DNA of 39,210 bases from Thermodesulfovibrionia bacterium (GTDB lineage Bacteria; Nitrospirota; Thermodesulfovibrionia; UBA6902). The translations under genes were made by a program, and so were the position numbers. The notes beneath the pieces are model-generated. The model ran no database searches. It was not told the DNA's origin and saw only the letters and a program-made list of their open reading frames with translations. Numbering within the stretch: position 1 is the stretch's first letter; each line of letters opens with the position of its first letter. Positions 12,529 through 39,210 of this stretch are shown in pieces. The stretch is from contig CALZJD010000017.1 of NCBI GenBank assembly GCA_945787795.1, positions 1-39,210 of the forward strand, given 5' to 3'.

Positions 12529-14406
12529 GTGCCCGGTTTAAACGAACAGGAGAACCCTGTGAGAAAAAAGTTCCAGTTCAAGAGCATAAGAGCACGCCTC
12601 ACCTTCTGGTTTTTTATTATGGCCATGGTTCCGCTGATTATGGTCAATATCGTAATTTATATCCATATAGTGCATTCAATGAAGGTATCCATATTCAACA
12701 ATATCGAGGCTCTCAGGGATCTGAAGGTTAATGAAGTTAATCACTGGCTTAATGAAAGAATAGCAGATGTTCGTACCATCGCATCCAGTGATGAGATACG
12801 CATACTGGAAGAGTTATACATTGATAAGGAAGAAAATAGACACCCTGATCTCGAGATTGCAGCAAAGGCTCGGATTCTTCTCAACAGATACCTGAAAAAT
12901 TATGATGACTTTCACGAATTCCTTATTGTAAGTCCATCCACAAAAAACGTCATGGTATCCACTGAGCAAGAGATTGAAGGGGAACTGCATTCGAAAGACA
13001 ATCAAGTTTCAGAGGTATTGGAGTTTAAGGATTTAGCCATCACAGATATCCATTATTCAGACAGACTCAATAAGCCCAGCATGGCGTTTTCCGTTCCGGT
13101 TTTTAGTTCGATGCACCGAAATCGAATCATTGGTATTCTCGTTGCCAATATTAACCTTGAAGCTTCTCTGTATAAAATATTATTAAATCGTACAGGAGTC
13201 GGAAAAACAGGCGAAACTCTGATTGTGAACAAAAATGGCATGGCTTTGAATAAACTGCGCTGGTACGATAATACCCCGCTTAAGCTGGACATCAAATCAC
13301 AAGCGGCTGTCTATGCGGTCTTTGGGAGAACAGGCATTATGGAGACAGTGGACTATAGAGAGGAAAAAACACTGGCCGCCTATACATATATTCCGCGTAC
13401 CGGCTGGGGATTTGTAGCAAAGCAGGACCTTCAGGAAGTCTATGCCCCTATTTATCGTCTCAGAAAATGGATGCTGGCCATAGTATTTATGACGTTAATC
13501 GGGGTGATTATAAATACCCTTCTTGTTTCACGGTCGATATCAAATCCAATCAAGGAATTACATAAGGGAAGTGAAATAATTGGAAGCGGTAATTTGGATC
13601 ATAAAGTCGGTACTGATGCTAATGATGAAATTGGAGAATTATCCCGAACATTTGATTTGATGATAGAGACGTTAAAAACTACTACCGCGTCCTGGGATGA
13701 CCTGAATAAAGAGATCGCCGAACGCAGACACCTGGAGAAAATGCTTCTTGATATTAGAGAACACGAACGACGGCGTATTGGACATGATCTGCATGACAAT
13801 CTGGGACAGCAACTGACAGCCATATCATATAAAACTCAGGGCCTAGAAAACATATTGAGAAAAAAAATGGTTCCTGAAGCCGAAGATGCTGAGAGGATTA
13901 CATCCCTGATAGAGATGGCAAAAATACAGGTCAAATCTCTTTCAAAAGGTCTCTCGCCCATTCTGGGAAAGGGTGAGTATGGTCTCATGTCAGCCATGGT
14001 AGAGCTTGCATCTAATTCTGAAAGACTATTCGGGATTCCATGTGTTATCAGTTGTTCAAAACCTGTTCCCATATATAATGAAGCTGCGTTAATTCATCTT
14101 TATCGCATAGCTCAGGAGGCTATTACCAATGCTGCGAGACATGCCCGTCCCAAAAAAATCGAAATTCAATTTAAGAGGAATCATGACAATATTTCATTGA
14201 CAGTAATAGATGATGGAACAGGTTTCGCTGTACCGGCCCATTTAGAAGGAATCGGCCTGGAGATTATGAAATACAGGGCAAGAAGAATTAATGCATCCCT
14301 TGATATACGGCCGGGTATCGATAAAGGGACAATTGTATCATGTATTTTTAAGGATAAACAGGAAAGTGAGATCAATATTGCTGAAAACACCAACTTTCCG
14401 GCATAG
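12529..14406 (+). CDS. Membrane sensor histidine kinase (Cache-like sensor, HAMP, HisKA_3, HATPase)
   Basis: 625 aa; N-terminal TM, extracytoplasmic sensor, second TM, HAMP (SRSISNPIKELHKGSEIIGSGNLDHKV), IREHERRRIGHDLHDNLGQQLTAI (NarX/DegS type), AQEAITNAARHARP, DDGTGF. Confidence 0.92.
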   Translation: MPGLNEQENPVRKKFQFKSIRARLTFWFFIMAMVPLIMVNIVIYIHIVHSMKVSIFNNIEALRDLKVNEVNHWLNERIADVRTIASSDEIRILEELYIDKEENRHPDLEIAAKARILLNRYLKNYDDFHEFLIVSPSTKNVMVSTEQEIEGELHSKDNQVSEVLEFKDLAITDIHYSDRLNKPSMAFSVPVFSSMHRNRIIGILVANINLEASLYKILLNRTGVGKTGETLIVNKNGMALNKLRWYDNTPLKLDIKSQAAVYAVFGRTGIMETVDYREEKTLAAYTYIPRTGWGFVAKQDLQEVYAPIYRLRKWMLAIVFMTLIGVIINTLLVSRSISNPIKELHKGSEIIGSGNLDHKVGTDANDEIGELSRTFDLMIETLKTTTASWDDLNKEIAERRHLEKMLLDIREHERRRIGHDLHDNLGQQLTAISYKTQGLENILRKKMVPEAEDAERITSLIEMAKIQVKSLSKGLSPILGKGEYGLMSAMVELASNSERLFGIPCVISCSKPVPIYNEAALIHLYRIAQEAITNAARHARPKKIEIQFKRNHDNISLTVIDDGTGFAVPAHLEGIGLEIMKYRARRINASLDIRPGIDKGTIVSCIFKDKQESEINIAENTNFPA

Positions 14407-14479: not shown

Positions 14480-14542
14480 TGTATTTGACCTATAATGATG
14501 GTAAGGAGGACAACCCTAAAGGATTTTTATGGAGGAGAAAGC

Positions 14543-15211
14543 ATGAAAGCTCTAAAAGCTGGAAACAAAACAAAAAAAAATAAAGTTTTCATAGTTGATG
14601 ACCATTGCATTTTACGCGAGGGACTTTCACATCTCATTAATAGCGAGGAAGACCTTTTGGTATGTGGAGAGACAGACAATGTTTCCGATGCATTGCAGGC
14701 TATTGAAGATGCTAAACCTGATATTATCATAGTTGATATCAGTCTTGGAGACGGCAGCGGAATCAGACTTACAGAGAACCTCATGTATTCCCATCCCGGG
14801 TTACCGGTTCTGGTTCTTTCCATGCACGATGAATCCGAATATGCCGAAAGATGTTTAAAGTCAGGGGCAAGGGGCTATATCATGAAACAGGAGTCATCCA
14901 TAAAAGTGCTGTCAGCGATAAGAAAAGTCCTGAATGGAGAAATATACGTTAGTGATAAATTAAATGTAACCCTCTTACATAAATTCGTTAAAAATAAATT
15001 TGAAAGTTTTGATTCTTCCACAAAACCCCTCAGCAACCGTGAACTGGAAGTGTATCAACTCCTTGGTCAGGGACTGAAAAAGCACAAGATAGCAGAACGA
15101 TTAAACCTCAGTGTTAAAACCATTGAAACATACATAGAGCACATCAAGATAAAGCTGCAGTTAAAGGGCACACATGATGTCCTCATGCACGCGGTCAAAT
15201 CTATTTATTAG
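14543..15211 (+). CDS. NarL/LuxR-family response regulator
   Basis: Receiver domain (VFIVDDHCILREGL, DIIIVDISLGDGSGI) plus HTH_LuxR (LSNRELEVYQLLGQGLKKHKIAERLNLSVKTIETYIEHIKIKLQ). Start at MKALKAG (14543) with GGAGGAGAAAGC upstream; the ORF track starts at 14495. Confidence 0.93.
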   Translation: MKALKAGNKTKKNKVFIVDDHCILREGLSHLINSEEDLLVCGETDNVSDALQAIEDAKPDIIIVDISLGDGSGIRLTENLMYSHPGLPVLVLSMHDESEYAERCLKSGARGYIMKQESSIKVLSAIRKVLNGEIYVSDKLNVTLLHKFVKNKFESFDSSTKPLSNRELEVYQLLGQGLKKHKIAERLNLSVKTIETYIEHIKIKLQLKGTHDVLMHAVKSIY

Positions 15212-15558: not shown

Positions 15559-16410
15559 ATGTTCAATATTTTAAAGAAGGAGGAATTATCAGAGCACGTA
15601 ACTTTATTTGAGATTGAGGCAGGAGATATAGCAAGGAAAGCAAAGCCAGGGAATTATTTTATACTCAGGACCCATGAGAAAGGTGAAAGGGTACCTTTAA
15701 CTATTGCTGATTTCGACCGGGGCAGAGGGACCATTACAGCTGTTTTTCAAAAGGTCGGCAAGTCGACCAATCACCTGGGTACTCTCAATGAAGGAGATTT
15801 TATCACCGATGTCGTGGGCCCTCTCGGCAACGATTCCCATATAGAGAATTTCGGCAGGGTAATATGTGTGGGCGGCGGCGTCGGGATAGCGCCTGTGTAT
15901 CCGATAGCAAAGGCGCTCAAGGAAGCAGGCAACAGGGTCACATCAATTATAGGCGCCCGGTCCAAGTCAATTCTTTTCTGGGAAGAAAAAATGCGGGACG
16001 TATCCGATGAACTCATTATTACAACAGATGACGGTTCATACGGTACAAAGGCACTTGTAACGGCACCTCTCGAAGATATTCTGTGTATTGAGAAGGTTGA
16101 TCTGGTACTTGCCATCGGCCCTGCCATCATGATGAAGTTCGTATGCAGGACAACGGAAAAATACAACGTGAAAACCATAGTCAGTCTGAACTCAATCATG
16201 ATTGATGGTACGGGGATGTGCGGCGGCTGCAGGGTGGAAATTGGAGGTGAGACAAAATATACATGCGTAGACGGCCCTGAATTTAATGGTCACGAAGTTA
16301 ATTTTGATCTGCTCATGAACAGGCTTCAGGGATATATTGACGAGGAAAATATGGCTATGAATCGAGTACAAGCCTGTGGAGGTAAGAATTATGGAATTAA
16401 GTACAGCTGA
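15559..16410 (+). CDS. nfnA: NfnA-like FAD/NAD-binding ferredoxin:NADP+ oxidoreductase subunit (sulfide/dihydroorotate dehydrogenase electron-transfer subunit family)
   Basis: 283 aa; FNR fold, GGGVGIAPVYPIAKALKEAGNRV, C-terminal MCGGCRVEIGGETKYTCVDGPEFNGHEVNFD [2Fe-2S] region; followed directly by NfnB. Confidence 0.88.
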   Translation: MFNILKKEELSEHVTLFEIEAGDIARKAKPGNYFILRTHEKGERVPLTIADFDRGRGTITAVFQKVGKSTNHLGTLNEGDFITDVVGPLGNDSHIENFGRVICVGGGVGIAPVYPIAKALKEAGNRVTSIIGARSKSILFWEEKMRDVSDELIITTDDGSYGTKALVTAPLEDILCIEKVDLVLAIGPAIMMKFVCRTTEKYNVKTIVSLNSIMIDGTGMCGGCRVEIGGETKYTCVDGPEFNGHEVNFDLLMNRLQGYIDEENMAMNRVQACGGKNYGIKYS

Positions 16411-17821
16411 GAAAGAAACAAAAAAAAGAGTAGACATGAGAGAGCAGCCTCCCCTGGTCAGGGCGAGAAATTTCCTGGAAGTCCCTTACGGGTATACCCC
16501 TGATGAAGCGGTTGAAGAGGCAAGCAGATGCAAGACATGTAAAAAAGCCGCCTGCAGGACAGGATGCCCGGTTGAAGTAGATATCCCCGGTTTCATGGAT
16601 CTGATAAAAGAGAAAAAATTCCTGGAAGCCTGTTACAAGGTGAAAGAAAAAAACGCATTGCCAGCAGTGTGCGGACGGGTCTGTCCCCAGGAGAATCAGT
16701 GTGAATCCCGCTGCCTTTTGGGAAAAAAGGGAAAGCCCATAGCAATCGGAAACCTGGAGAGATTTGTTGCTGACTATGAGGCTGATAAAGGTGAGATGAA
16801 AATTCCCGAGATGCCAAAGCCCACAGGGAGAAAAGTTGCGGTCATAGGGTCCGGTCCAGGCGGTTTGACATGTGCAGTTGATCTGGCAATGTCAGGACAT
16901 ACGGTTACCCTGTTTGAAGCATTTCATGACCCGGGAGGCGTGCTCATATACGGCATACCTGAATTCAGACTGCCAAAGGAAATCGTAAAAAAAGAGGTCG
17001 AGTATATAAAGAAACTGGGGATCGAGCTCAGGCTGAACACAGTAATCGGAAAGCTCCATACAATCGATGAATTGCTGAATGGCGGGGGATATGACGCATG
17101 CTTTATTTGTACAGGTGCAGGGTTACCCATGTTTTTAGGAATACCGGGTGAAAATCTCAATGGTGTCTGTTCTGCAAATGAATATCTGACAAGGGCAAAT
17201 CTGATGAAGGCGTATCTCTTTCCCGAGTATGAGACCCCCATAAAGAAGGGCAAGGAGGTCGCGGTATTGGGGGGAGGTAATGTCGCTATGGATTCTGCAA
17301 GGGTGGCATTAAGGATTGGAGCGGAAAAGGTCTATCTTATATACCGGCGCTCTGAGGCCGAAATGCCGGCAAGAAAGGCGGAAGTGCACCATGCACATGA
17401 GGAAGGCATCGAGTTTTTATTCCTGACAAATCCCATTCGATTTATTGATGATGGCAAGGGCAACCTATGCGGAGTTGAATGTATAAAGATGGAACTTGGA
17501 GAGACTGATGAGTCGGGCAGGAAAAGGCCGGTTCCCATTAAAGGCAGTGAATTTCAAATCGAAATAGATGTGGCAATCCCCGCATTAGGGTCCAAAGCAA
17601 ATCCGCTTTTAACCAAAACAATGCCGGAGTTAACCTTAAACAAGGGCGGTTATATTGCAACTGACGAAGGGACAGGCATGACATCGAAGAAGGGTGTATT
17701 CGCCGGTGGAGATATTGTTACAGGTTCTGCAACGGTTATCTCGGCTATGGGAGCAGGAAGGAGGACAGCGAATGCAATTAATGAGTATCTCAAATGGAAA
17801 CACTGGGATTATCAGCAGTAG
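16391..17821 (+). CDS. nfnB: NfnB-like / NADPH glutamate synthase small-chain (GltA) family oxidoreductase
   Basis: CKTCKKAACRTGCPVEVDIPGFM, AVCGRVCPQENQCESRCLLGKKGKPIAIGNLERFVAD, VIGSGPGGLTCAVDLA, GGGNVAMDSARVALRIGA. Start at MELSTAEKE (16391). Confidence 0.9.
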   Translation: MELSTAEKETKKRVDMREQPPLVRARNFLEVPYGYTPDEAVEEASRCKTCKKAACRTGCPVEVDIPGFMDLIKEKKFLEACYKVKEKNALPAVCGRVCPQENQCESRCLLGKKGKPIAIGNLERFVADYEADKGEMKIPEMPKPTGRKVAVIGSGPGGLTCAVDLAMSGHTVTLFEAFHDPGGVLIYGIPEFRLPKEIVKKEVEYIKKLGIELRLNTVIGKLHTIDELLNGGGYDACFICTGAGLPMFLGIPGENLNGVCSANEYLTRANLMKAYLFPEYETPIKKGKEVAVLGGGNVAMDSARVALRIGAEKVYLIYRRSEAEMPARKAEVHHAHEEGIEFLFLTNPIRFIDDGKGNLCGVECIKMELGETDESGRKRPVPIKGSEFQIEIDVAIPALGSKANPLLTKTMPELTLNKGGYIATDEGTGMTSKKGVFAGGDIVTGSATVISAMGAGRRTANAINEYLKWKHWDYQQ

Positions 17822-17862: not shown

Positions 17863-18606
17863 ATGAAAGATTACATTAGCATAATGGTCGCAGATAATGA
17901 CCCTGAAATTATAAAAAGCGCACTGACGATCCTTTATCACGAAGGCCATTCTGTTGAAGGCGTGCTCAGTGGAATAGAAGCGATACAAAAGATAAAGCAA
18001 AATAATTATGATCTTGTTTTCACGGACCTGTCGCTGCGCGGTTTAGACAGCATTACCCTTATAAGATGGATAAAACAATACTGGCCTGCCACAGGTGTAG
18101 TTGCTATAACAGGAAAGCACTTAAAAAAAGCCATTAAAGAGGCCCACAGGATCGGCATAATCAGCCATCTGATCAAACCATTTACGCCGGAATTGTTAAT
18201 AGACGTTTCCAACAGGGCAATTGAGTGGATAAAGGAAAATGAATTAAAGAATGAACAGGAAGATGGATTTAAACCGGAAATGTTTGCAGAGTTGGATGAG
18301 GCGATTAATCAATACGGGAAAACGTCCAGTCAGGCAATTCAGGTGCTCACGCGTGCCCAGGAGATATTCGGGTATCTCCCCTCTATCGTACAGAAACGAA
18401 TTGCGCATGGACTGAACATGCATCCTTCTGAAATAAGAAATATTGTTTCCTTTTACTCCAACTTCAGGATGCAACCAGAAACTCCCCCTACTCGAGGATA
18501 TATAAGCGGAATCGAAAAGGCATGGAATAGCGTGACCTGGATGACAGGAAATAATGCATTGCATTCGGTTAACGAGTTTATCAAATGGAGGCAATTGGCA
18601 TCTTGA
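17863..18606 (+). CDS. Response regulator receiver domain fused to the N-terminal helical domain of NuoE/HndA (no [2Fe-2S] thioredoxin-like domain)
   Basis: MKDYISIMVADNDPEIIKSALTILYHEGHSVEGVLSG...DLVFTDLSLRG...GIISHLIKPF (receiver) then ELDEAINQYGKTSSQAIQVLTRAQEIFGYLPSIVQKRIAHGLNMHPSEIRNIVSFYSNFRMQP (NuoE-type). The protein contains no Cys. AAAGGAGGTGTACCG upstream; the ORF-track N-terminus (VGAGLKPAPAKGG) is translated repeat. Confidence 0.85.
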   Translation: MKDYISIMVADNDPEIIKSALTILYHEGHSVEGVLSGIEAIQKIKQNNYDLVFTDLSLRGLDSITLIRWIKQYWPATGVVAITGKHLKKAIKEAHRIGIISHLIKPFTPELLIDVSNRAIEWIKENELKNEQEDGFKPEMFAELDEAINQYGKTSSQAIQVLTRAQEIFGYLPSIVQKRIAHGLNMHPSEIRNIVSFYSNFRMQPETPPTRGYISGIEKAWNSVTWMTGNNALHSVNEFIKWRQLAS

Positions 18607-18721
18607 CATCTTAAAGGGAGATATCTGTATGGGCGGAGTATAACCGCTGTTTAAAAATGACGTGTAATCGCATCAGCGCCTCCTGGAGGGTCTGGTGCAG
18701 CAGCAGGAAAGGAGAAATATT

Positions 18722-19105
18722 ATGGCCAGGTTAAGCATAGCAGACCTTCAGCATGTCAGGGATGAAAATAAGGCAACGTTTACTCTCAGAAAAGGTGATT
18801 TCAAAGCTAAGATTGTTGTGCATATGGGGACCTGCGGAATCGCGGCCGGTGCAAGGAATGTTATGACTGCCCTGATGAATGAGATAGCCCTTTCCGGAAG
18901 AGAAGATACAGTTTTAAAGACTGCAGGATGCGGCGGGCTCTGCGCACGTGAACCAATGGCTGTTATTGAATTAAAGGACCAGACGCCTGTCATTTATGGC
19001 GACCTGGACGAAGAAAAGATTACAGAGATATTCAGAGAGCATGTTATGCATGGAAATCCTGTAGAAAAATATGCAATGGCGCTTGGAGCAGAAACAATAA
19101 TTTAA
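18722..19105 (+). CDS. hndB: HndB-like thioredoxin-fold [2Fe-2S] protein
   Basis: HMGTCGIAAGARNVMTALMNEIALSGREDTVLKTAGCGGLCAREPMAVIEL; start ATG 18722 with AAAGGAG upstream. Confidence 0.85.
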   Translation: MARLSIADLQHVRDENKATFTLRKGDFKAKIVVHMGTCGIAAGARNVMTALMNEIALSGREDTVLKTAGCGGLCAREPMAVIELKDQTPVIYGDLDEEKITEIFREHVMHGNPVEKYAMALGAETII

Positions 19106-19213: not shown

Positions 19214-21077
19214 ATGGAAACTGCGGTTCGTACACATGCAATGCTTTGCGGAGGGACTGGCTGTATGGCAAGCGGCACCAATAAAGTCAAGGCATCTCTT
19301 GAAGAGGAGTTCAGGAAGAAAGGGATTGATGATGAAGCAAAGGTGGTCCTTTCAGGATGCAACGGATTTTGCGCCAAAGGGCCTGTTATGGCTGTGTATC
19401 CGGATGAGACATTTTATCAGGACATAACTCCGGATGAGACATTTTATCAGGACATAACTCCTGAAGATGTACCCGCTCTGGTTGAGGAGCATTTTCTTAA
19501 AGGAAGACCTTATCAGAAACTGGCGTTCAAGGAGCATGATAAAAAAATTGCCATTCCCTCAATACATGATATCCCTTTCTTCAAACACCAGGTTTTGGTG
19601 GTGCTGAAAAATAAAGGACTCATTGACCCGGAGCGTATTGAAGACTATATAACAATGGACGGATATAAGGCCCTTTCAAGGGCTCTCACCCTGATGAAGC
19701 CGGAAGAGATAGTTAAGATAGTTACAGACTCAGGGCTAAGAGGAAGAGGCGGTGCAGGTTTTCCCACAGGGAAGAAATGGGAGCTTGGTCTGAAGATAAA
19801 ATCCGATGAGAAATATGTCATATGTAATGGGGATGAGGGTGACCCCGGCGCATTCATGGACAGGTCGGTTATGGAATCAGACCCGCATTCGGTCATTGAG
19901 GGTATGATTCTCTGCGGCGTGGCAACTGAATCACATAAAGGCTATATTTATGTAAGGGCCGAATATCCACTGGCGGTAAAACGCCTTCAAATCGCCATAG
20001 ACCAGTGTTACGAATCAGGATTGCTCGGCAGCAATATCCTCGGCACCGGGTTTGCTTTTGACCTTGAGATATACCAGGGCGCAGGCGCGTTTGTCTGCGG
20101 TGAAGCTACGGCCCTTATGCGTTCTATTGAGGGTAAGCGCGGTATGCCCAGACCCAAGCTGTGGCGTTCTGCGGTAAAGGGCTTGTGGGACAGGCCGACA
20201 ATTCTTAACAATGTCGAGACCCTGGCAAATATTCCTCAGATCATCTTAAACGGGGCCGGGTGGTATAGAACCCTTGGTACCGAGGAAAGCGCCGGGACAA
20301 AGGTCTTTGCGCTTACTGGTGATATACATAACGTCGGACTGGTCGAAGTCCCGATGGACACCTCTCTCAGGAAGATTATCTTTGATATAGGCGGAGGGAT
20401 ACCAAAGAAGAAGAGGAAATTCAAGGCCGTACAGTTGGGAGGACCTTCAGGGGGCTGCATCCCCGAGGAGTTCCTGGATATACCCGTCACGTATGAGGCC
20501 ATCAGGCAGAGCGGAGCAATTGTAGGCTCAGGCGGTATGGTGGTAATGGATGACAGTACCTGCATGGTGAACACGGCAAAGTTCTTCCTTGATTTTACTG
20601 CTGACGAATCCTGCGGTAAATGTGTGCCGTGCAGGATCGGAACATGAAGACCTTTCACAGGATATCATCGATGCATCACTCTGCGGCCTGGGCCAGTCAG
20701 CGCCTAACCCGGTACTTTCAACATTAAAGTATTTCAGACGCGAGTATGAAATGCATATACATGATAACTGGTGTCCGACAGGTGTTTGCAGTGACCTCAG
20801 CACATTCTACATAGATGAAAAGCTTTGCAAGGGATGCGGGGCCTGTTTGAGGGCATGTCCTTCAAACGCGGTAAGCGGTGAGAAGAAAAAACCCCATACC
20901 ATACATCAGGAAAACTGCGTGCATTGCAGAACATGCTGGGAGGCATGCAAATTTGATTCTATAAAGATCCTTCCTGCTGCAGCCCGCAATGCAGGAGATG
21001 CAGAATTAGAGTATCTCGTGGATATGGTAACGTCAGGTCGGACAGGAATTCAAGAGACAGTAGACATTAGACAGTAG
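19214..21077 (+). CDS. hndC: HndC/NuoF-like NAD(P)-binding flavoprotein subunit with N-terminal [2Fe-2S] and C-terminal 2x[4Fe-4S] domains; interrupted by an apparent frameshift near 20645
   Basis: ORF 19214-20647 has LRGRGGAGFPTGKKWEL, CNGDEGDPGAFMDRSVME and ends ...ESCGKCVPCRIGT-stop; the +1 frame resumes ...EDLSQDIIDASLCGLGQSAPNPVLSTLKYFRREYEMHI plus CKGCGACLRACPSNAV and CVHCRTCWEACKFDSI. Confidence 0.88.
19400..19459 (+). repeat. Perfect 30-bp tandem duplication inside the hndC-like gene
   Basis: CCGGATGAGACATTTTATCAGGACATAACT twice (19400-19429, 19430-19459), in frame, PDETFYQDIT x2. Confidence 0.97.
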
Positions 21078-21209: not shown

Positions 21210-23676
21210 ATGGTAAAGCTCAAAATTAACGGTCAAAAGATCAGTACAAAAAAAGGAAGCACCATCCTTGAGGCTGCATTGGACAATGGCATAAAAATTC
21301 CCCATCTCTGCCACGACAAAAGATTAGTGCCATATGGCGGCTGCAGGTTATGTATTGTGGAGATAGAGGGAATGAGGAAACCCGAGGCTTCATGTGCAAC
21401 ATTTGCAGCCGAGGGACTTACCGTGTGGACAGAAACCCCGAAAGTGAGAAAGATACGCCAGACCGTGCTTGAGCTCATGCTGGTCCATCACCCTCTTGAA
21501 TGTCCTGTATGCGACAAGGCTGGAGAGTGCGAAATTCAGGACCTGGCTTATCAGTACGGCAATCCCCGGACACGTTTTATAGCAGAAAAAAACCACGCGC
21601 TGCCTGATACCAAAGGTCCCCTTGTTGAATTGACTTCCAGCAGGTGCATACTCTGCGGAAAATGCGTGCGTATATGTGCAGAACATCAGGGACAGGGGGC
21701 ACTCGGATTGATCGGGAGAGGCTTCCCCACTGTTGTACAGCCTGCATTCGGTGAGGCCCTTGAATGTGATTACTGCGGACAGTGCATTGATGTGTGCCCC
21801 ACAGGTGCCATTACAAACAAATCCCTTAAATTCAAGTTACGCCCATGGTTTCTTGAGGAGAAAGATACAATATGCCCTTTCTGCAGCTGCGGCTGCACGC
21901 TCACCCTTGGAATACAGGATGGGAAGATTCTGAGATCAAGGGGGAGGCAGGACAGGGGATTGAATGAGGGGAATCTCTGCGGCAGGGGAAGGTTCGGAAT
22001 TGATTATATCTACAGTGAAAACCGTCTCAGGTCACCCATGCTAAATAAAGGAGGTGAGTTTGTTTCTGTATCATGGGACGAGGCCTTTCATTATATAAGC
22101 GACAGACTGAAAAATATCATCAATGCCCATGGTTCTTCCACCATAGGGGGGATAGGTTCGCCCAGATGCACAAATGAGGAAAATTATTTTTTTCAAAAAT
22201 TCATGCGTGAGACGATAGGATCGAATAATATAGATTCTTCAGCTTCCTTTGGATACGGCCTTATCGAGAAAGCCTGGAACATGGCCTTTGGCCTGAGCGG
22301 TCACAACATCGACCTGAAATCCCCTATTGGCAAAGATGTAATTCTCGTTATCGAATCAGACCTCAGCATTACACATCCTGTTTTCGGGCTGAACATACTG
22401 AAGGCTCAAAGGGAGGGATCTAAGCTCATCGTTGCTGACAGCCGAGAAACAAAGTTGACAAGGCACAGCACACAGTGGCCGAGAATACATCAGGGGACCG
22501 GGGTGGCACTCCTGAACGGAATAATGAGGGTCATGTTGGACAGGGGTCTTGTTGATAGTGAAATTGCGTCAAACATTAAATGGTTTTCAGAACTTGAGGA
22601 AATGTTAAAAGAGTATCCTCCGGAGAGAGTATGTGAGATTACCGGGCTGAGCATCGATGAGCTTTTTACTGTTACAGAAACATTGGTAAATGCCGGGACT
22701 AGAATGCTCACTCTATCCATCGGCGTCTCTGAAAATACAAAGGGACTGGATACGATTCTGGCTGCAACGAATTTAATTCATCTTCTTGGGGAGGGTCCTG
22801 ATGCCCTTCAGGTACCGGCAGAATACTCCAATACCTTTGGACTGTATCAAATGGGTGTAAGACCGGATGCCGGACCAGCCTATCAGAGGATTCATCCTGC
22901 CGGTAAAAACATAATGGAGATGCTCTATGAGCCCTACTCTCTCAAGGCACTTTATATCATGGGAGCAGACCCTGTTGTGACCTTTCCCGATGCCCCGGAG
23001 ATTATCACGACATTGAAATCTTTATACCTGCTGATTGTACAGGATATTGAATTAACAGAAACAGCAAAATTCGCTCATGTAATACTGCCTGCATCCAGCT
23101 GGGCAGAAAAAGACGGCACATATACGAACGCCGAAGGAGTTACACAAAAAGTACACAAAGTAATTGATCCTGCGGGCCAGTCTCCTGAAAAAACTTGCAC
23201 AGACCATGGGAAAAGACATCGGCATAGAAGACAAAACGGACATAGCGGGTTATATTTACTCATTGCTTGATGACCCTCGTAACATGAAACCCATGACCCG
23301 TGCATTTAATCCTGTTCATTATGCACCCGGTGAAAAACCGGATGAAGAGTATCCGTTGAATTTGGTTGTGCGGGATGTATTGCAGCACGGCGGCAGTATG
23401 TCAACAAGGTCCAAAGCGCTTAACCTTGTTTCATCCGAGGCGCTGCTGGAGATAAACGGCAGGGATGCTGAAAAGTTCGGTATTTCAGATAACGGTCATG
23501 TCAAGGTAACTTCCAGACGGGGCTCGGTGTATCTCAAAGCCGCTGTTGCTGATGGCGTGCCTCATGGAATTGTCTATGTACCGACACATTTTCCTCACAG
23601 TGAAGTAAGCAGCCTTACCTTTGCTGCAGGCAAAGGAGGAATATCTACTGATGCAGTCAGGATTGAAACAGCATAA
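21210..23676 (+). CDS. NuoG/formate dehydrogenase alpha-like molybdopterin-fold iron-sulfur subunit; interrupted by an apparent frameshift near 23185
   Basis: [2Fe-2S] (CHDKRLVPYGGCRLCIVEIEGMRKPEASC), HHPLECPVCDKAGEC, SRCILCGKCVRICAEHQG, CDYCGQCIDVCPTGA, CPFCSCGCTLTLG, molybdopterin domain. Frame changes after VIDPAGQ; the other frame continues LLKKLAQTMGKDIGIEDKTDIAGYIYSLL...VRIETA. Confidence 0.88.
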
Positions 23677-37924: not shown

Positions 37925-39210
37925 ATGAATATTTCAAGAAGAGATTTTCTCAGATACACAACACTGACCGCAACCGGCACTGCTGCAGGACTTGCTGATG
38001 CAGAGTTCATGAGTGAGCTGCTGGCAATGGGCATGAAGCCCCCTTTCAATATAAGTCAGGTACCGACATTTTGTGAAATGTGTTTCTGGAATTGCGGTGC
38101 CATAGCAACCGTTGTCAATGAACGGGTCGTGAAACTTGAGGGGAATCCAGTATGCCCGAGGTCAATGGGAAAACTGTGCGCAAGAGGCAACGCCGGCATT
38201 GGACAGCTTTATGACCCTGACAGACTTAAACACCCGATGATAAGAACGGGCAGCAGAGGCGACGGGAAATACAGAAAGGCGTCATGGGATGAAGCTCTTC
38301 ACTATGTAGCAGACAAAATGACCGGTATCAAGGAATCTTATGGGGCTGAGTCAATGGCATTTATGATGCATGGGGGAATCACGAGTCATCTCATGACCCT
38401 GCAGGGAGCATATGGCAGTCCAAATTTTGCTTTTCCTTCATTTGCCCAATGCAGAGGAGCAAGGGTTATAGCATATGAACTGACCTATGGAACAGATGTC
38501 GGGTCACCTGAACGGGTAGATTTAAGTAACAGTAAAGCCGTTGTTTTATTCGGGACGCATCTGGGCGAAAACATGCATAATTCCCAGGTGCAGGATTTTA
38601 CTGAGGCCATTGGCAATAACGCCACCATAATTGTTGCCGATCCCAGGTTTTCAACTGCTGCAGGTAAAGCGAGGTACTGGCTTCCCATTAAGCCCGGAAC
38701 AGATATGGCCCTTATCCTTGCATGGATTAACATTATCATTCAAAAAAAAATGTATGATCACGATTACGTCAACAGATATACTCTCGGGTTTGATGAATTA
38801 AAGAACACGGTAAAGGACTATTCACCTGAATGGGCCTCCGGGGAAACCGAAATTCCTGCCTCAATCATTGTTAAGACCGCAGTGGAACTTGCATCAAAGG
38901 CACCCTCGGTATGTGTGCACCCCGGACGCTTCACTGCATGGCACGGAAATGATACCCAGCGCGAAAGAGCAATAGCCATTCTTGGAGCAATTCTCGGTAC
39001 ATGGGGCAGGCAGGGAGGAATATATCTCCCTACCAAATCCTTGCTCCCCATGCCAGAAAGCAAAGCTTTTCCAAAACCTGACCGGCCAAGCCTTACCGGC
39101 GGACCGCACCGTTTTTCAAAACCGCAGTTAATGCAGGAAGTCAGAAGAGCAACTATCGAGGAAACACCCTATCCGATAAAAGGATGGGTTGTGGCAGGCA
39201 CTAATATGCT
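37925..39210 (+). CDS. Tat-exported molybdopterin oxidoreductase (DMSO reductase family, PsrA/PhsA-like); 3' end beyond window
   Basis: MNISRRDFLRYTTLTATGTAAG (twin-arginine), CEMCFWNCGAIATV...CPRSMGKLCARGNAG [4Fe-4S], WDEALHYVADKM, ADPRFSTAAGKARYWLPIKPGTDMALILAWI; open through 39210. Confidence 0.9.
   Translation, partial: MNISRRDFLRYTTLTATGTAAGLADAEFMSELLAMGMKPPFNISQVPTFCEMCFWNCGAIATVVNERVVKLEGNPVCPRSMGKLCARGNAGIGQLYDPDRLKHPMIRTGSRGDGKYRKASWDEALHYVADKMTGIKESYGAESMAFMMHGGITSHLMTLQGAYGSPNFAFPSFAQCRGARVIAYELTYGTDVGSPERVDLSNSKAVVLFGTHLGENMHNSQVQDFTEAIGNNATIIVADPRFSTAAGKARYWLPIKPGTDMALILAWINIIIQKKMYDHDYVNRYTLGFDELKNTVKDYSPEWASGETEIPASIIVKTAVELASKAPSVCVHPGRFTAWHGNDTQRERAIAILGAILGTWGRQGGIYLPTKSLLPMPESKAFPKPDRPSLTGGPHRFSKPQLMQEVRRATIEETPYPIKGWVVAGTNM

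Follow-up and report, generated by a model that had tools for sequence, protein, structure and literature searches.

A receiver-fused NuoE protein without its [2Fe-2S] domain in an Nfn-linked operon of Thermodesulfovibrionia

The gene at positions 17863-18606 of a 39,210-nucleotide stretch from a Thermodesulfovibrionia bacterium (contig CALZJD010000017.1; the whole stretch is termed the window) encodes a receiver domain fused to the N-terminal helical half of NuoE, followed by a short tail where the [2Fe-2S] domain would stand. This receiver-NuoE variant without the [2Fe-2S] domain is denoted dFeS. Its homology and gene neighbourhood make it somewhat probable that the protein acts as a cluster-less docking or regulatory NuoE stub on an Nfn-linked, Bfu-type NADH complex that works without C1-gated bifurcation. 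What is distinctive is not the fusion but that the [2Fe-2S] domain was subsequently lost.

Gene and Domain Anatomy

The gene starts at an ATG (17863) with AGGAGGT just 5' of it, and its parts are as follows.

17863..18606, + strand: receiver-NuoE(dFeS), P0001, 247 aa (translation, Pfam, PDB sequence match, relatives)
17881..18204, + strand: receiver domain, residues 7-114, with sites D11, N12 (normally D), D55, T83, and K105 (Pfam, site alignment)
18295..18480, + strand: NuoE/HydC N-terminal four-helix domain, residues 145-206 (Pfam, 7p5h_C, model with pLDDT ~80, Foldseek)
18481..18603, + strand: Cys-free 41-residue tail in place of the [2Fe-2S] thioredoxin-like domain (alignment, codon models, structure model)

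Pfam recovers Response_reg over residues 7-114 (1.4e-18) and 2Fe-2S_thioredx (PF01257) over residues 145-206 (2.6e-13; 50.5 bits, cut-off 24.8), with the latter confined to profile positions 2-63 of 145 and positions 64-145 unmatched. By sequence comparison, residues 141-207 align with residues 33-99 of 7p5h_C, the HydC of T. maritima. Modelling of residues 134-247 gave a confident four-helix bundle (pLDDT ~80) whose best Foldseek matches are all NuoE/FdsG/HydC/NDUFV2 chains, with a top probability of 1.00 and a TM of ~0.5. The AlphaFold model of the full protein, built with a 3-sequence alignment, was poor (pLDDT 47) and was set aside. An earlier note, made from the sequence alone, had read the protein as a receiver fused to the helical half of NuoE and lacking the N1a/C1-type [2Fe-2S] domain. 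Pfam, 7p5h_C, and Foldseek agree on the fusion, with NuoE similarity present in the C-terminal region, and the unmatched half of PF01257 together with the Cys-free tail bears out the absence. All four [2Fe-2S] cysteines are missing, there being no Cys in the C-terminal 41 residues of the window protein, and blastx of all frames as far as the next gene, HndB, found no trace of the [2Fe-2S] domain.

Distribution and Origin of the Variant

An initial contig scan gave two close relatives and was followed by a broader survey of 198 Thermodesulfovibrionia genomes at the class level and 395 genomes at the phylum level. Among the 198 class genomes, matches to the NuoE half split into a larger group of receiver-NuoE proteins of ~290-310 aa with a full [2Fe-2S] domain and a second group whose matches run to the very end of the query. 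A profile search of 37 family genomes, with inspection of neighbouring matches, found 12 dFeS copies in 11 genomes of one family spanning five genus codes (G000, G092 (twice), G098, G040, G048, G078, G080, G096, G024, G060, and G062). Because one G092 copy, near-identical to the window, could be mis-binned, 11 distinct lineages are counted. The earlier note had allowed that homologs might all be complete and this copy simply truncated; retention in at least 11 distinct lineages means that dFeS is not a private truncation.

The full receiver-NuoE fusion is found in ~114 of the 395 phylum genomes, all of them in the window's class, and the relative in f25, a family of the phylum outside the class, is an unfused NuoE of ~170-210 aa. 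This makes the receiver fusion an old, class-wide feature. An example of receiver plus complete NuoE is L044:6281-8116; in G040 this fusion is preceded by receiver-GcvH-like and DRTGG/PHP/HATPase genes. No published description of a receiver-NuoE fusion was found in the open-access literature searched.

In a tree of the receiver and N-domain, the 12 dFeS proteins and one intact copy, from G155, form a single clade (support 100/99). The tree of the HydB-like (HndC) subunit recovers the same operon lineage (100/100) and groups the dFeS operons in 70% of bootstrap trees; constraining dFeS to one clade is not rejected (p-AU 0.24). Because the closest outgroup copy, that of G155, retains the [2Fe-2S] domain, the loss is derived. 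The simplest reading is that the operon of a receiver-NuoE-[2Fe-2S] ancestor was duplicated and the domain then lost once or twice.

The tail that stands in place of the lost domain follows the motif G-x-x-+-A/V-W-x-x-V/M ... V-x-x-F-I-+-x-R, is recognisable in 11 of the 12 copies, and is shortened in G060. Across the 11 distinct copies, 0-2 Cys follow the N-domain. The model predicts the tail to be helical at low confidence, and a PDB profile search returned no relative of known fold. That the tail might be a relic of the early part of the [2Fe-2S] domain finds only a weak hhalign match in its favour (probability 21%, E 0.001, 24 columns). The copy in which the motif is not recognisable, L098:7915-8658 of G062, lies in the same operon and has a tail nearly unrelated to the others, which suggests that the tail may be free to diverge in some lineages.

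Operon and Partner Subunits

The dFeS operon runs in the order histidine kinase, LuxR-type response regulator, NfnA, NfnB, receiver-NuoE(dFeS), HndB, HydB-like (HndC), and NuoG/FdhA-like. In the window, the genes around dFeS are the following.

12529..14406, + strand: dCache-HAMP-HisKA_3 histidine kinase (Pfam)
14495..15211, + strand: LuxR/NarL-type response regulator (Pfam, synteny)
15559..16410, + strand: NfnA-like subunit, FAD/NAD-binding with DHODB-type [2Fe-2S] (Pfam)
16376..17821, + strand: NfnB-like (GltD-type) subunit (Pfam, relatives)
18695..19105, + strand: HndB-like thioredoxin-fold protein with 3 ligand Cys (C-x4-A ... C-x3-C), likely start ATG 18722
19214..21077, + strand: HydB/BfuB-like flavoprotein (HndC) with N-terminal thioredoxin-fold domain, FMN domain, and [4Fe-4S] regions
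21210..23676, + strand: NuoG/FdhA-like subunit (BfuA type), molybdopterin-type domain without catalytic Cys/Sec

Gene order from NfnA to the NuoG-like gene is conserved, and the ORFs are unbroken, in G040, G092 (second copy), G096, G024, and G060. NfnB of the operon type (79-91% identity) is found only in genomes with a dFeS operon and is absent from G155 and others. The most reduced version lies in G048 (L045:7366-10176), where the operon is without NfnA, NfnB, and HndB and the phospho-accepting Asp of the receiver is replaced by Glu.

A NuoF/HydB-type partner, HndC, is encoded downstream of dFeS in the same operon. The HydB-like partners retain essentially all 26 conserved Cys columns, those of relatives (G040 was checked) match 7t2r_B/7q4v_B over their full length, and the BfuB layout of thioredoxin-fold, FMN, and C-terminal 2x[4Fe-4S] domains is present in relatives, the window copy being broken by a deletion. 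In the NuoG/FdhA-like subunit, the position expected to carry the catalytic Cys/Sec motif of formate dehydrogenases has S-S-A-x-F-G-Y in the majority of copies, whichever of the two operon types they belong to. It holds Cys or Sec in none, so formate dehydrogenase activity is not proposed and that assignment was rejected. At the contig end (window 37925-39210) is a partial molybdopterin-oxidoreductase-like ORF, 26% identical to the NuoG/FdhA-like subunit, that is possibly another Mo/W enzyme.

The full-length receiver-NuoE shares with dFeS the same receiver and N-domain and the same HndB, HydB-like, and NuoG-like partners. It differs in keeping C-x4-C...C-x3-C in 48 of 48 distinct proteins, and its operon differs in lacking NfnAB. 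In G040, where it was checked in detail, that operon comprises a histidine kinase, receiver, DRTGG, HATPase, DRTGG, PHP, HATPase, receiver-GcvH-like, receiver-NuoE, HndB, HydB-like, and NuoG/FdhA-like genes. A further Bfu-like cluster (L125:1674-9661, L126, and L128), divergent from a second NfnA-NfnB pair, has a complete unfused NuoE, a HydB-like subunit, and a NuoG/FdhA-like subunit in two ORFs, and is kept in at least three genomes of the family.

Receiver Chemistry

The active site of the receiver is conserved in the full-length proteins and variable in dFeS. Of the 48 distinct full-length proteins, all have Asp55 and Lys105 and 46 have Thr83; the acidic pair reads D-D in 47, and the last one is not aligned at that site. 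In the window protein the Asp and Lys that the earlier note had singled out are present as phospho-acceptor D55 and K105; conservation of the Asp does not extend to G048 and G024, where it is Glu. The acidic pair of dFeS is D-N (D11-N12) in the window, G098, G040, and G048 and D-D in the other copies; position 83, normally Thr, has Ser in G098 and Ala in G078. The window receiver may be phosphorylatable, though atypical, and the substitutions across copies indicate that phosphorylation cannot be a universal requirement of the dFeS subfamily.

The LuxR-type response regulator is likely the cognate of the kinase at 12529 and the regulator of the operon. A related kinase is absent beside the dFeS operon in G080 and G096, so the HisKA_3 kinase is probably not a dedicated partner of the NuoE-fused receiver. 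A precedent for a receiver acting on such an enzyme is Rv3143, an orphan CheY-like receiver that binds the NADH dehydrogenase Nuo; it is likewise a CheY-like receiver associated with an NADH dehydrogenase and differs in being a separate protein that crosslinks to NuoD of a complete Nuo complex (PMC9274095).

Proposed Role

The encoded protein would be the BfuC subunit (NuoE/HydC) of a Bfu-type NADH complex linked to Nfn, a membership that we infer from the operon and from homology. The receiver joined NuoE first, in a fusion found throughout Thermodesulfovibrionia, after which, in one paralogous operon lineage, the C1/N1a [2Fe-2S] domain was deleted and a short, mostly conserved, putatively helical tail came to stand in its stead. 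Its NuoE N-domain, the docking element of known complexes, would hold the stub on the HydB-like subunit, with the receiver beside the FMN/ferredoxin-arm region to serve in regulation or assembly. Among the Foldseek matches are the NAD-bound cryo-EM entries 7t30_C, 9n5v_C, and 9bov_C, in which chain C is resolved over ~64-72 residues, covering the N-domain without the ferredoxin domain. Because the N-domain is the part that stays ordered in these NAD-bound structures, that of dFeS probably still docks.

In NiFe-HydABCSL, the HydC C-terminal domain passes electrons from FMN to the HydB [2Fe-2S] and moves as a gate, the C1 domain being described as the element that gates low-potential electrons; it is stabilised by the N-terminal domain of HydB (PMC8880783). 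The dFeS stub would no longer pass electrons from FMN to the HydB [2Fe-2S]/[4Fe-4S] arm, and so the complex should run without the C1 gate. It may be a non-bifurcating NAD(H) oxidoreductase, or bifurcation may be performed by the NfnAB partner. NfnAB is a bifurcating pair in its own right; that it takes over the C1-type function is no more than suggested here. A different Nfn-adjacent Bfu cluster of these genomes has retained its complete NuoE, so NfnAB adjacency alone does not make C1 dispensable. A strict rule by which NfnAB replaced C1 is weakened both by this cluster and by G048, in which dFeS is kept without NfnAB in the operon.

The missing domain could also be supplied in trans, by HndB or by the full-length receiver-NuoE of the same genomes. 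The first source corresponds to the proposal of the earlier note, a split NuoE in which HndB gives the [2Fe-2S] module and the phosphorylation state of the receiver controls its docking on the HydB-like subunit. In its favour, HndB lies directly downstream of dFeS in most of the operons and is related through its thioredoxin fold both to the missing domain (it matches positions 65-143 of 145 of PF01257) and to the N-terminal domains of HydB; D55 and K105 are present in the window protein. The note was right that a thioredoxin-fold HndB is encoded next, but the protein has three ligand Cys, not four, and the same C-x4-A...C-x3-C pattern recurs in full-length operons, where HndB stands beside a complete receiver-NuoE. 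Its alignment with HydB-type N-terminal domains (NfnB of the T. sibiricus Nfn-Bfu and StnB) makes it of the B5 type rather than the C1 type. Being also found beside a complete NuoE and missing from the dFeS operon of G048, HndB is unlikely to be a severed half of NuoE, and the variation of the receiver (Glu for D55 in G048 and G024, with N12 and A83 also seen) speaks against control by phosphorylation. A split NuoE completed by HndB is a weak reading and is judged unlikely.

Another reading is a regulatory decoy, in which dFeS would compete or mix with the full-length receiver-NuoE for HydB-like subunits and thereby tune bifurcation. The N-domain is conserved, and dFeS genomes from which both loci were retrieved carry the full-length receiver-NuoE operon as well. 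Every dFeS gene, however, belongs to a complete operon that encodes a diverged HydB-like subunit of its own and no other NuoE, and a decoy is slightly less probable still than HndB completion.

Selection and Integrity of the Operon

In codon models of nine dFeS proteins, omega is 0.212 for the receiver, 0.205 for the N-domain, and 0.298 for the tail, and omega=1 is rejected for all three (for the tail, 2 delta-lnL is 43.9). Pairwise dS is ~0.3-1.0 between the closest species, so this result does not rest solely on saturated comparisons. The full-length paralogs are held more tightly (omega 0.050 and 0.052), and invariant residues of the N-domain are common to them and dFeS. The dFeS protein is retained under purifying selection, yet is less constrained than its full-length paralogs.

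The window carries several breaks downstream of dFeS. The HydB-like gene has a 68-bp deletion near 20645 relative to G098, with a frameshift, and is intact in relatives; because of this deletion it is read as two ORFs (19214-20647 and 20589-21077). The NuoG/FdhA-like gene is split by a 17-bp deletion near 23183, and NuoG-like ORFs are split at other places in G098 (L010) and G078 (L051). Within window 19330-19480, a tandem duplication of 30 bp repeats DETFYQDITP in the N-terminal domain of the HydB-like protein; it is absent from the near-identical G092a and from contig L009 (99% identical). The window indels may be assembly errors or real strain decay. The receiver-NuoE gene itself is intact in the window and agrees with its relatives.

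These deletions and split ORFs, the variable active site of the receiver, and an omega ~4x that of the full-length paralogs are what would be expected of a decaying paralog, with the operon on its way out and dFeS without function. Such decay is very improbable given an omega well under 1 in every region, tail included, and the unbroken syntenic ORFs in the five copies listed above. A frameshift or assembly error as the cause of the missing domain, to which the indels in two genes further downstream might point, is refuted by independent genomes that share the architecture and a homologous tail (the single-contig assembly G040 included) and by the lack of a [2Fe-2S] remnant in other frames.

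Comparison with Known Systems

The dFeS protein resembles BfuC/HydC/NuoE/FdsG (PF01257) in its N-terminal four-helix domain and in the position of its gene beside HydB/NuoF-like and NuoG-like subunits, and differs in having an N-terminal receiver, no C-terminal [2Fe-2S] domain, and a different conserved tail. In Bfu complexes (BfuABC), which link a third substrate to NAD(H) and ferredoxin, the C1 [2Fe-2S] of BfuC is said to be conserved across all Bfu enzymes (PMC9304861), and the dFeS subunit is without it.

Nfn-Bfu and Stn enzymes (StnABC, PMC10482914; T. sibiricus and S. ovata Nfn-Bfu, PMC9304861) similarly combine a HydBC-like core and a GltD module of the NfnB type with a NuoG-like subunit whose FdhF-like domain is catalytically dead. 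The FdhF-type domain of Stn is catalytically inactive (PMC10482914), and the corresponding subunit of the dFeS family is likewise without Cys/Sec. In Stn, however, the NfnB-like module is fused to the NuoG-like subunit, NfnA is absent, and the NuoE-like subunit keeps its [2Fe-2S], whereas here NfnB is a separate ORF (16376-17821) accompanied by NfnA. A likeness in cluster loss is seen in the N-terminal region of HoxF from a non-bifurcating hydrogenase, which is NuoE-like and without the C1 iron-sulfur cluster (PMC8880783); it differs in being fused to the flavoprotein and in having no receiver.

Implications

Taken as a whole, the dFeS operon may represent a Bfu-type complex that discarded the mobile C1 gate and kept the docking half of NuoE as a receiver carrier, leaving FMN uncoupled from ferredoxin, or coupled to it through NfnAB or HndB, under signal control; this fuller picture is tentative, and the comparisons behind it are of genes and predicted proteins. 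If true, the BfuBC core would not be as invariant as has been claimed. The fusion also points to an NADH/ferredoxin enzyme that takes two-component-type input directly, as a protein. Carrying two paralogous operons that both encode a receiver fusion and of which only one has the gate, this one family of anaerobic Nitrospirota provides a natural comparison for the function of C1.
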